Shown here piece after piece: positions 55,997-59,932 of a stretch of DNA of 64,000 nucleotides (the first letter of the stretch is position 1; every line of letters starts with the position of its first letter). Below the pieces are notes generated by a model. It had not been told where the DNA came from, searched no databases, and saw only the letters and a list, made by a program, of their open reading frames with translations. The DNA comes from an uncultured Flavobacteriaceae bacterium. Its GTDB lineage: Bacteria > Bacteroidota > Bacteroidia > Flavobacteriales > Flavobacteriaceae. Location: positions 372,001 through 436,000 of the forward strand of contig CANKZQ010000003.1 of the NCBI GenBank assembly GCA_947488345.1, given 5' to 3'. The translations under genes and the position numbers were made by a program.

Positions 55997-57958
55997 TTAG
56001 ACCACCCTATTCAATTTTTCGAAGAGTAATTTTTTGAGAGACGTATAATTTACAATCATTTCGAGCATGCTTTGACGTTCTTCTGCTGGCTGTTCTTCTT
56101 CGAGTAACTCTTTAATTTTGAGTTCGATGAGAATACGGCGCAAATTCAAAATGGCATCCATCACAAGTTTCGAAAGGTTTTTGTCTTTTCCTTTGACGTA
56201 AATCTCTTTCCGAAGCCAATCGCTCAACACATACTTTTCATCATCCATGAGAATATCGGTTACAGCTTGTCCTATTTCTTCGTCTTCACTATTAATGAAT
56301 GTATCAATATTCACATCTTCATCTTGATTAAGCTGATGAATAATATGATAATAAATTTTCTGAAAAACAGCATTGCTAAATTCAATTTCATCGTCGTGTA
56401 GGTGCAGGTAAATTTCTTTAGATACGGTATTTTGATAGTTTTCTTTTACAATCTTCACGTTGCCTTCGTCATCTTCTACTTCGACAAAATCTGTAAAATC
56501 AACTTCTCTATCACCATACAACAGTAATATTTCGATCAGTTTTTTCTCTAACCGGTTCAGTTGATCTTCCTTTTTTAATGCTTGAGGTTTCCCTTTGACC
56601 ACCTCGAAAGATGGTTCTTCTGTGTTTTGTACAGGTTTTTTAGAGGCATCTCGGAGTTCTCGTTTTGATAGTTGCGCAAGTTCACTGAACAATACTTTTT
56701 CAGAAATATCCATAATGCGAGAACACTCTTGCACATAGATCTCTCGTTGAATATTGTTCGGAATCTTCGAAATACTCACAACGATATCTCGTATCAACGC
56801 TGCCTTTTTCACCGGATCATTTTGAGCTTCATCCATCAATAAAGACACCTTGAACTGAATGAAATCCTGTGAATGCTCCTTCAGATATGACTGTAATTCT
56901 TCTAGGGAATGATTTTTAGCGAAACTATCTGGATCTTCGCCATCAGGAAAAGCGACCACCTTCACATTCATCCCTTGTTCTAAGATCAAATCAATACCGC
57001 GAATAGATGCTCTAATACCGGCGGCATCACCGTCAAACAAAACGGTAATATTTTGAGTCAATCGATTTACCAGGCGTATCTGATCAGATGTTAAAGCCGT
57101 ACCTGAAGAGGCGACTACATTCTTAATACCTGTCTGGTAAAATGAAATAACGTCTGTATAACCCTCTACCAAATAACAGTTATCTTCTTTAGCAATGGTT
57201 TGCTTCGCATGGTAGATTCCGTAGAGTACTTTGCTCTTATGATAAATTTCACTTTCTGGAGAATTTAGGTATTTAGCTGCCTTTGCCTCTTTTGATAAAA
57301 TACGTCCGCCAAAACCCAGTACTCTACCCGACATACTGTGAATGGGGAATAATACCCGTCCTCTAAAACGATCAAACTGCTTGTTTTCTTTTACAATGGT
57401 GAGACCTGTTTTCTCTAAGAACTCTAATTTATACCCTTTTTTTATCGCAGTATCTGTAAAGGCACTCCAATCATCGAGACCGTATCCTAATTCGAAAGTT
57501 TCTATGGTTTCATTGGTAAAACCGCGCTCCTTAAAGTAAGACAAGCCGATGGCTTTTCCTTTTTGTGTATTTAGTAAAACGTCATGAAAATAGTTACGCG
57601 CATATTCAGAAACTAAGTACATACTTTCCCGCTCATTCTGCTGCTCTTTTTGCTCATCAGACTGCTCGGTTTCCTCAATTTCTATGTTGTATTTTTTGGC
57701 GAGATATCGAATCGCCTCAGGATATGAATAGTGCTCATGCTCCATTAAAAAAGAAATGGCGTTACCTCCCTTTCCAGTACTAAAATCTTTCCAGATTTGC
57801 TTGACGGGAGACACCATAAATGAGGGCGATTTTTCATCCGCAAAGGGACTCAAACCTTTAAAATTACTACCTGCTTTCTTTAATTGTACAAAATCACCGA
57901 TAACTTCTTCGACACGGGCCGTGTCAAAAACGTTGTCTATGGTGGTTTTCGAAATCAT
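55997..57958 (-). CDS. dnaG: DNA primase with ligand-less zinc-ribbon domain
   Basis: Synthesises RNA primers for replication. The 653-residue protein has the CHC2-like N-terminal domain, a TOPRIM core (YLVEGYTDVISFYQTGIKN, VLFDGDAAGIRASIRG, DGEDPDSFAK) and a helical C-terminal part that should bind the DnaB helicase. The four zinc-binding positions are replaced: GLSPFA in place of CPFH (S37, A40) and KDFST in place of CFGC (D58, T61). The rest of this domain is well kept. It begins 7 bases after the clpX stop. Confidence 0.96.
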   Translation of the reverse strand: MISKTTIDNVFDTARVEEVIGDFVQLKKAGSNFKGLSPFADEKSPSFMVSPVKQIWKDFSTGKGGNAISFLMEHEHYSYPEAIRYLAKKYNIEIEETEQSDEQKEQQNERESMYLVSEYARNYFHDVLLNTQKGKAIGLSYFKERGFTNETIETFELGYGLDDWSAFTDTAIKKGYKLEFLEKTGLTIVKENKQFDRFRGRVLFPIHSMSGRVLGFGGRILSKEAKAAKYLNSPESEIYHKSKVLYGIYHAKQTIAKEDNCYLVEGYTDVISFYQTGIKNVVASSGTALTSDQIRLVNRLTQNITVLFDGDAAGIRASIRGIDLILEQGMNVKVVAFPDGEDPDSFAKNHSLEELQSYLKEHSQDFIQFKVSLLMDEAQNDPVKKAALIRDIVVSISKIPNNIQREIYVQECSRIMDISEKVLFSELAQLSKRELRDASKKPVQNTEEPSFEVVKGKPQALKKEDQLNRLEKKLIEILLLYGDREVDFTDFVEVEDDEGNVKIVKENYQNTVSKEIYLHLHDDEIEFSNAVFQKIYYHIIHQLNQDEDVNIDTFINSEDEEIGQAVTDILMDDEKYVLSDWLRKEIYVKGKDKNLSKLVMDAILNLRRILIELKIKELLEEEQPAEERQSMLEMIVNYTSLKKLLFEKLNRVV

Positions 57959-57965
57959 TGGGAAA

Positions 57966-59207
57966 TTATGATACCGCTTTTAACTTACTCAATGTAGATT
58001 TTGTGAGTTTACCTTCGGCATATTTTTTTGTTACCTTCAATACTTTTTCATCGCTCCCTGGCAATTCGAACATCGCATCTGTCAAAATAGCTTCGCATAA
58101 AGAACGTAAGCCTCGTGCTCCTAATTTATACTCCACTGCTTTCTCGACAATATAGTTCAAGGCTTTTTCGTCAATATCGAATTTAATGTCATCCATTCCA
58201 AACAATTTATCATACTGTTTCATGATGGCATTTTTAGGCTCCGTTAAGATAGCACGCAATGTACCCGCATCTAACGGATTCATATAGGTCAATACTGGTA
58301 AACGTCCGATAATTTCAGGTATCAATCCAAAGTCTTTTAAATCTTTTGGTACGATATATTGCAATAAATTGTCTTCGTCGACACGTTCTTCATTTTTCGA
58401 CGCACTGTAACCAACAGCCTGCATATTTAAACGCTTACTAATTACTCTATCAATACCGTCAAAAGCACCACCAGCAATAAATAAAATGTTACGTGTATCG
58501 ACTTCCACAAATTTTTGATCAGGATGCTTTCTACCTCCTTTTGGCGGTACGTTTACTACAGTACCTTCTAACAATTTCAACAAGGCCTGTTGCACACCTT
58601 CTCCCGAAACATCACGTGTAATAGAAGGGTTATCGCTTTTTCTTGCAATTTTATCTATCTCATCAATAAAAACAATCCCTTTTTCGGCTTTCTGTGTATT
58701 GTAATCTGCTGCCTGTAATAATCGTGTTAAAATAGTCTCGACATCTTCACCCACATACCCTGCTTCTGTCAATACAGTAGCATCGACAATGGCAAAAGGT
58801 ACATTGAGCATTTTAGCAATCGTACGCGCTAATAATGTTTTACCCGTACCCGTTTCACCCACGAGCATAATATTACTCTTTTCTATTTCAATATCATCTT
58901 CCTTACTCGAAGGTTTTTGCAATAAACGTTTATAGTGATTGTATACGGCTACGGCCATCACTTTTTTCGCTTGATGCTGACCAATAATATACTCATCTAA
59001 AAAGGCTTTTATCTCTTGCGGTTTTTTTAATATCAGCTCGCCTGAAAGTCCTTCAGCTTTCGTATCCGTAATCTCCTCTAGAACGATTCCATGTGCTTGT
59101 TCGATACATCGATCACATATGTGTGCATCTAAACCAGCTATTAATAAGTTAGTTTCTGGCTTTTTCCGTGCACAAAACGAACATTCTAATTCTTCTTTCT
59201 TTGCCAT
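57966..59207 (-). CDS. clpX: ATP-dependent Clp protease ATP-binding subunit ClpX
   Basis: AAA+ unfoldase that feeds ClpP. The 413-residue protein has the N-terminal zinc domain with all four cysteines (CSFC and CDRC), Walker A GETGTGKT, Walker [28 protein letters not shown], the pore and RKH regions (GRKHPDQKF) and sensor 2 GARGLRS. It follows clpP by 47 bases and precedes dnaG by 7. Its intact zinc site contrasts with the lost sites in DnaG and L32 nearby. Confidence 0.98.
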
Positions 59208-59254: not shown

Positions 59255-59932
59255 TTATTTATCTCTCGTCAAAACTTCGTCAATCATACCATATTTCTTC
59301 GCTTCTACTGCTTTCATCCAATAATCTCTATCAGAATCGTCACTTACTTTTTCTTTTGTTTGACCCGAGTGTTTTGCAATAATTTCGTACAATTCATCTT
59401 TTAACTTCAAGATCTCACGTGTTGTGATTTCAATATCAGAGGCTTGTCCTTGCGCACCACCTAATGGTTGATGAATCATTACTCTTGAATGAGGTAATGC
59501 CGATCTCTTTCCTTTTTGACCAGCACACATAAGTACGGCTCCCATAGACGCAGCCATTCCGGTACAAATAGTAGCTACATCTGGTTTTATAAATTGCATG
59601 GTATCATAAATACCTAAACCTGCATAAACACCACCACCAGGTGAATTTATATAAATTGAGATATCTTTAGAAGCATCTACACTTTCTAAAAATAGTAATT
59701 GTGCCTGTACAATATTTGCTACATAATCATCAATACCTGTACCTAAGAATATGATTCGATCCATCATTAAACGAGAAAATACATCGAAAACAGCAATATT
59801 CATCTGACGTTCTTCTATAATGTTCGGTGTCAATCCCACGGGATACATAGCACTGATCATTTTATCATAGTACATGCTATTAATTCCCTGATTTTTTATA
59901 GCGTATTTTTTAAATTCTTCTCCGTAATTCAT
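59255..59932 (-). CDS. clpP: ATP-dependent Clp protease proteolytic subunit ClpP
   Basis: Serine protease that forms the tetradecameric chamber used by ClpX. The 225-residue protein has the catalytic serine in GMAASMGAVLMCAG, the histidine in RVMIHQPLGG and an aspartate in DRDYWM. The N-terminus is about 25 residues longer than the E. coli mature form and may be self-processed. It is the first gene of clpP-clpX-dnaG and is separated from rpmF upstream by a terminator. A trigger-factor gene is not adjacent. Confidence 0.97.
   Translation of the reverse strand: MNYGEEFKKYAIKNQGINSMYYDKMISAMYPVGLTPNIIEERQMNIAVFDVFSRLMMDRIIFLGTGIDDYVANIVQAQLLFLESVDASKDISIYINSPGGGVYAGLGIYDTMQFIKPDVATICTGMAASMGAVLMCAGQKGKRSALPHSRVMIHQPLGGAQGQASDIEITTREILKLKDELYEIIAKHSGQTKEKVSDDSDRDYWMKAVEAKKYGMIDEVLTRDK

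Follow-up and report, generated by a model that had tools for sequence, protein, structure and literature searches.

The 64-kb stretch of DNA analyzed here (the window) encodes a DNA primase, DnaG, in which all four zinc ligands of the N-terminal domain have been replaced. We consider it probable, at roughly 70%, that this protein is the cell's working DnaG primase and carries a metal-free zinc ribbon whose knuckles would be held by hydrogen bonds, a reading that draws on sequence, on predicted models and on analogy with other proteins. That a zinc-binding domain can lose its metal is already known; what appears to be new is that a replicative primase has been hit repeatedly, with the same outcome each time.

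The dnaG gene (55997-57958, identified from the open reading frame list, its translation and Pfam) lies on the minus strand, as do clpX (57966-59207) and clpP (59255-59932), open reading frames whose names were read from the sequence and, for clpX, confirmed by Pfam. The 653-aa DnaG translation reads, in the region of the ligand positions, KGLSPFADEKSPSFMVSPVKQIWKDFSTGKGGNAISF. Four Pfam families, PF01807 (Zn_ribbon_DnaG), PF08275 (DNAG_N), PF13155 (Toprim_2) and PF10410 (DnaB_bind), were matched above cut-off and in the usual order, giving the arrangement of a bacterial DnaG, with a CHC2-fold domain, a DNAG_N/TOPRIM core and a DnaB_bind domain. The N-terminal CHC2-fold domain, which is without metal ligands, comprises residues 1-97 (57668-57958, minus strand), as delimited by PF01807 (residues 3-97, E 1.3e-28), an AlphaFold (AF2) model and Foldseek. 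It is followed on the same strand by the RNA polymerase (TOPRIM) domain with E265, D309 and D311 (residues 106-427, 56678-57643, placed by its match to 4edg) and by a C-terminal domain that is likely helicase-binding (residues 461-641, 56036-56578, placed by its match to 2r6c_G).

Translation and structure alignment place S37 (57848-57850), A40 (57839-57841), D58 (57785-57787) and T61 (57776-57778), all encoded on the minus strand, at zinc ligands 1 (Cys), 2 (His), 3 (Cys) and 4 (Cys), respectively. The first knuckle is thus changed from CPFH to SPFA and the second from CFGCG to DFSTG. The original prediction had named these same four replacements, and the span it gave, 57776-57850, matches the S37-to-T61 codons exactly. 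A profile built from 48 zinc-less sequences matched only two solved chains, 1D0Q (positions 1-96) and 2AU3 (positions 5-102), and aligned to both without gaps, so the ligand positions in the window DnaG are unambiguous. Since the Cys-His-Cys-Cys set of a zinc-binding CHC2 domain is absent from this gapless alignment, we do not file the domain as zinc-binding. Compared with the zinc-type DnaG of Geobacillus stearothermophilus (1D0Q) and Aquifex (2AU3), the protein has the same domain order, predicted N-terminal fold (1.1 A) and catalytic residues, but differs in all four ligands and in having DFSTG instead of CFGCG at the second knuckle. Its only cysteines are C261 and C412, so that residues 1-260 contain none, and the only histidines within residues 1-100 are H74 and H76. 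Displacement of the ligands to nearby positions was rejected on the basis of the gapless alignment and the lack of cysteine in residues 1-260.

To see how relatives compare, we translated 192 DnaG loci from overlapping sets of 395, 295 and 148 genomes, with 30 genomes searched again, mostly for weak or unlisted scores. Counts refer to 190 loci (the window's own and its relatives), a copy of the window (L032) and a locus read in the wrong frame (L192) having been left out; they are not a random sample, comprising loci that matched the window or PF01807 best, the 30 re-searched genomes and hand-picked places. Just two kinds of site were present, CHCC in 94 loci and S-x-[C/D]-[S/T] in 96, and recurrence of the same kind of replacement in 96 of the 190 rules out chance or sequencing error as the source of the ligand loss. 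All 96 zinc-less loci have Ser at position 37 and Ser or Thr at position 61, whereas position 58 is split between Asp (72) and Cys (24); position 40 is variable, with His found only in family f2 (SHDT or SHDS in 7/7 loci). Expressed as ligands retained, 65 zinc-less loci have none and 31 have one, and sites with two or three ligands were absent among the 190 DnaG loci. The recurring outcome is therefore a change from CPFH..CFGCG to SPFx..[C/D]FS[S/T]G. For column counts and trees, removal of two short rows (L008, L090) and 17 near-copies left 171 rows, of which 87 are zinc-type and 84 zinc-less. A re-read of the genome of L192 (G179) gave a zinc-type locus, L285 (CPFH..CFGC), which stands outside the count of 190; its open frame spans just 82 aa and the gene continues in a different frame, reflecting a frameshift or an assembly error.

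These rows bear on whether a metal might still be coordinated by a different set of ligands, such as D58 together with either H74 and H76 or residues of a neighboring subunit. D58 could act as a ligand, both histidines are present, and Cys or His is somewhat commoner in the zinc-less than in the zinc-type rows at position 74 (55/84 against 47/87) and position 76 (38/84 against 26/87). However, both columns are far from invariant in the zinc-less rows and are commonly Cys or His in the zinc-type rows; beyond positions 58, 74 and 76, no column of the domain has Cys or His in more than 9 of the 84 zinc-less rows, and in 56 of these the whole domain is devoid of cysteine. Such alternative coordination is, in our estimate, scarcely probable.

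The zinc-less domain is predicted to retain the normal fold. An AF2 model that covers residues 1-104 and takes in the window sequence plus 47 relatives had a mean pLDDT of 87.8, rising to 92-95 in the segments surrounding the ligand positions. Foldseek superposed it on 1d0q at 1.1 A over 92 columns and on 2au3 at 1.1 A over 86 columns, VIA-align gave Z scores of 16.2 and 15.5, respectively, and the overall range of deviations from 1D0Q was 1.1-1.3 A. The model of the full-length protein (pLDDT 88.7) matched RNA polymerase domains of DnaG with Z scores reaching 36.8, the value obtained for the TOPRIM domain against 4edg (2.5 A over 319 residues), so that on predicted models both the core and the N-terminal domain resemble solved DnaG. 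The C-terminal domain matched 2r6c_G with Z 9.6 and 4.0 A over 132 residues, which is weak for a helical bundle. Against the metal-free reading, AlphaFold may reproduce the family fold even if the protein were unstable without metal. The earlier statement that the domain must be held together without metal is thus softened to a likely reading, on the grounds that every ligand is gone while the predicted fold is retained.

The turn of a zinc knuckle is held, via the metal, by the two cysteines of CxxCG. In the window DnaG, hydrogen bonds from side chains and backbone would hold the knuckle turns in place of the Zn-thiolate bonds, supplied by S37, D58 and T61 together with S60 (57779-57781, minus strand), which, by column counts in the 171 rows, stands where the zinc form has glycine. 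The N-terminal domain would thereby keep its fold and still hand the template to the catalytic domain. D58-F-S-T61-G62 follows D-x-x-T-G, the pattern of the Escherichia coli adenylate kinase lid, and it is this likeness, together with the precedent of that enzyme, that leads us to propose hydrogen bonding of S37, D58, S60 and T61 in place of the metal. Excerpts of one account of adenylate kinase describe two subfamilies that share one lid structure, maintained at equivalent positions either by zinc bound to four Cys or by a network of hydrogen bonds, and name the polar residues as His, Ser, Asp and 'Tyr'; a two-plus-two chimera is cited there as non-functional, and a natural variant has three Cys and one Asp (PMC4227292). 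As in DnaG, a Cys-based zinc site or polar residues thus occupy equivalent positions, although the two proteins are unrelated. Half-changed DnaG sites may likewise be unstable, giving a switch between zinc and zinc-less states, and the absence of two- and three-ligand DnaG sites fits such a switch.

The parallel is inexact, which counts against the metal-free reading, since a three-Cys one-Asp lid exists in adenylate kinase but no three-ligand site was found in the 190 DnaG loci. The DnaG first knuckle, S-x-x-(T/S/V/A/H and others), and a third position that may stay Cys also set it apart from adenylate kinase. An all-polar set, as in the adenylate kinase-type lid, is present in family f2 (S-H-D-T or S-H-D-S) but not in the window, where S37, D58 and T61 fit and A40, whose side chain cannot form a hydrogen bond, does not. 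Position 58 is still Cys in 21 of the 84 zinc-less rows and H40 is kept in f2, so the zinc-less set varies and residue 40 is almost unconstrained, which also weighs against the reading. Another essential nucleic-acid protein, bacterial ribosomal protein S4, is different from DnaG but likewise has a zinc form and a non-zinc form and has undergone horizontal transfer, according to PMC3087516.

As to the role of the protein, the genome (27 contigs, 95% complete) contains one PF01807 match, the window DnaG, so that no second, zinc-type DnaG was found in this search, and a profile search for PF09250 (Prim-Pol) gave no match. E265, D309 and D311, the acidic TOPRIM residues by E. coli DnaG numbering, are invariant in the 48 zinc-less sequences, and the SPF, EK.PSF, KxFS and GKGG columns are invariant or nearly so. 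In 12/12 reduced genomes of the same order (0.3-0.6 Mb), a search for the CHC2 family gave a single gene each, in every case of the zinc-less SPF(S/T)..KDFSSG kind. As far as sequence can tell, then, the window DnaG would prime. The N-terminal domain might instead be a relic that has lost its function, like that of animal Twinkle, with priming carried out by the catalytic domain alone or by another enzyme. Twinkle was among the next structural neighbors after the two DnaG zinc domains (Foldseek and VIA-align), and according to excerpts of PMC7231222 the animal protein has lost three of its four cysteine ligands and also its primase activity; the search for primases in the window's genome covered just CHC2 and PF09250. 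Human Twinkle resembles the window DnaG in having a primase-type zinc domain minus its metal ligands, but has lost primase activity, whereas the window DnaG keeps the catalytic residues. The invariance of these residues, conservation of the four domain motifs, lack of a PF09250 match and the single zinc-less CHC2 gene of all 12 reduced genomes argue against a relic, which we regard as quite improbable.

Loss of four ligands from one zinc protein could also be part of general zinc saving by the bacterium. The zinc site of ClpX (C9-C12-C31-C34, 59106-59183, minus strand), which served as a control, is intact as originally noted, with all four cysteines present and zf-C4_ClpX matched above cut-off. 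PriA, RecR and DNA ligase encoded by the same genome likewise match their zinc families and keep their zinc cysteines. There is thus no general zinc loss among the four proteins examined, which weakens this explanation and leaves it a very small likelihood. The adenylate kinase lid family PF05191 had no match in the window's genome, a model that does match in six control genomes.

Zinc-less DnaG had been suspected to be a class trait of Flavobacteriia, which proved incorrect in both directions. Within the same order, CHCC is kept in families f121 (2/2 loci) and f126 (1/1) and mostly kept in f124 (7/8) and f128 (4/5), and zinc-less forms range from Flavobacteriales to Chlorobium, occurring also in Cytophagales, Mucilaginibacter, Chitinophaga and Bacteroidales records. 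In a scan of named genomes, the best 80 of 580 loci were zinc-less and their record titles were all Bacteroidota or Chlorobi, a scope (best 80 of 580) that does not exclude other phyla. These included Chlorobium, Thermochlorobacteriaceae, Chryseolinea, Reichenbachiella, Marinoscillum, Chitinophaga and Mucilaginibacter, as well as Crocinitomix, Owenweeksia, Aquimarina, Nonlabens and Bacteroidales bins. Ser was present at position 37, and His absent from position 40, in 80/80 of them; because the scan pattern itself fixes positions 58 and 61, it is positions 37 and 40 alone that carry independent information.

Phylogenetic trees of the core (query positions 101-440, with the N-terminal domain left out) pointed to many changes between the two states. 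The 171-row tree required 20 changes, 7 of them forced by starred branches, and came with a warning of long branches meeting. A 100-row tree (60 zinc-type and 40 zinc-less rows) was also examined, from which surplus rows of well-sampled families and ten long-branch rows had been removed (zinc-less L147, L178, L185 and L191; zinc-type L163, L164, L170, L173, L175 and L177). It required 16 changes (14-16 in bootstrap trees), 8 of them forced by well-supported branches; a single zinc-less clade appeared in 0/200 bootstrap trees, and forcing the 40 zinc-less rows into one clade cost 367 log-likelihood units (p-AU 1.9e-5). A class trait or single old loss was rejected on the 16 changes and the p-AU value, though the bootstrap of this tree is not fully settled (correlation 0.962). 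Zinc-less loci are found close to zinc-type ones at several well-supported points: L110 and L111, whose motif is nearly the same as that of Mucilaginibacter L272, group with zinc-type L112 of the same family, f3 (100/99); L137 is nested in zinc-type f124, adjoining zinc-type L138 (100/99); and L184 and L189 fall with zinc-type L172 (99/96). The direction of change does not follow from the count; it is likely zinc loss, because distant solved DnaG carry the ligands.

Position 60 changes together with the ligands, being Gly in 86/87 zinc-type rows and Ser in 83/84 zinc-less rows. G60S accompanied zinc loss in the same direction in 8/8 independent pairs on the 100-row tree (p 0.008) and in 6.8/7 on the 171-row tree, so the second knuckle shifts from CFGCG to [C/D]FS[S/T]G together. 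Column counts also drew attention to positions 29, 34 and 48 (A29, K34 and M48 in the window, within 57815-57874, minus strand), which are basic, non-basic and polar, respectively, in 74/87 zinc-type rows; the combination small, basic and hydrophobic occurs in 75/84 zinc-less rows against 3/87 zinc-type rows. On the 100-row tree, 4.5/8 independent pairs agreed with an association with zinc loss and none opposed it (median p 0.06), and on the 171-row tree the value was 4.1/7 pairs (p 0.125). We do not claim coupling of these three positions with zinc loss, which loses significance when relatedness is taken into account, and an enrichment of K63 in the zinc-less form was likewise not upheld on the tree. 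Altered template binding, the other option named in the original prediction, may at most be sought in these three differences. Four zinc-type rows (L138, L164, L165 and L177) already have Lys or Arg at position 34, three of them with the complete zinc-less triple, and are possible permissive backgrounds; five zinc-less rows (L048, L110, L111, L178 and L185) retain the old triple or most of it.

The changes may have arisen by repeated point mutation, or recombination may have swapped in a zinc-less N-terminal domain in one step, from a phage or mobile primase or from another lineage, a distinction that concerns the history of the protein and not its working. The lack of any two- or three-ligand site in the 190 loci speaks for recombination, as does a domain tree which, after removal of the eight switch columns, takes just 7 changes where the core tree takes 16. 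Zinc-less L110 is 72% identical to its zinc-type relative L112 in the core and only 64% in the domain. Viral sequences offer a possible source: in viral contigs, the best 80 of 332 loci comprised 56 CHCC, 23 zinc-less and one scored as CHCA with the last Cys one residue on, one of the two search patterns favoring zinc-less forms. Phage records gave 189 matches, from the 30 best of which the records examined were picked; of five loci, four were translated (L366-L369, with L370 of a Listeria phage left out), and primases were zinc-less in 3/3 Flavobacterium and Cellulophaga phages (two and one, respectively) and zinc-type in one Porphyromonas phage, few lineages being represented. The three zinc-less primases (phages laban6-1, 1H and Ingeline_1) have SPFx..[C/D]FSSG in the N-terminal domain, as in the DnaG described here, but differ in being part of larger genes of 3.2-3.6 kb.

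Other data run counter to such exchange. The domain of L137 stays with its family, being 76% identical to that of L138 against 74% to the best zinc-less domain of another family. Domain data reject the core tree among the 40 zinc-less rows (delta lnL 127) and all 100 rows (delta lnL 481), but also among the 60 zinc-type rows (delta lnL 192), and because the zinc-type rows alone conflict, disagreement between domain and core is weak evidence; further coupled columns would yield the same pattern. Recombination is therefore a tenable history that we hold to be somewhat doubtful. More speculatively, and in our view unlikely as a whole, DnaG may have two stable cores, one with zinc and one hydrogen-bonded, between which Bacteroidota and their phages would have flipped many times as a unit, partly via exchange of N-terminal domains with phages; the flip might remodel the exposed beta-sheet face (positions 29, 34 and 48), and hence start-site choice, and might render priming insensitive to NO and oxidants, whose target in DnaG is the zinc cysteines.

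Among the matches listed in a largely open-access primase literature, titles and abstract openings gave no description of a zinc-less DnaG, and excerpts of PMC3290774, PMC5429622 and PMC4164334 do not mention one; in the last, DnaG is used as a marker in Flavobacteriaceae. In PMC6163395 the DnaG zinc site is described as strongly conserved, with a part in the recognition of start sites that has yet to be defined precisely. Presence of zinc-less forms beside zinc-type relatives in one phylum allows one to ask whether the metal has a purely structural role, guides start-site choice or senses redox state. DnaG, PriA, TopA and ClpX are among the Salmonella zinc proteins that NO S-nitrosylates, according to excerpts of PMC6094482, which makes zinc-less DnaG a natural test of NO sensitivity. 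Without zinc thiolates, it would escape attack by NO, a conceivable selective advantage, though PriA and ClpX here keep theirs. For zinc-less bacteria, annotation of the N-terminal domain as a 'zinc finger' is misleading. Bacillithiol buffers zinc in Bacillus, and a link with zinc-less DnaG is conceivable. Bacillithiol derivatives, studied in Chlorobiaceae, are described as the most widespread bacterial thiols in PMC6282198.

Several CHC2-like proteins of other kinds were also encountered. L147 (genome G731), possibly from a mobile element, is a 1154-codon open frame that resembles DnaG but is zinc-less, whereas the four other loci translated from its family are zinc-type. Genome G146 combines both forms in one cell: besides a zinc-less DnaG (L182) and a small zinc-less protein (L284), it encodes a large frame resembling a primase that has CPFH as well as additional cysteines (L282). 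Thirteen further stretches (L273-L285) gave a motif match in nine and none in L276, L278, L279 and L280. Four of them, L274, L275, L277 and L284, are CHC2-like Bacteroidota proteins of about 300-350 aa with SPFR....W[Y/F]DHGxGxGG[N/T], and are probably mobile-element primases in which loss of the zinc ligands took another form.
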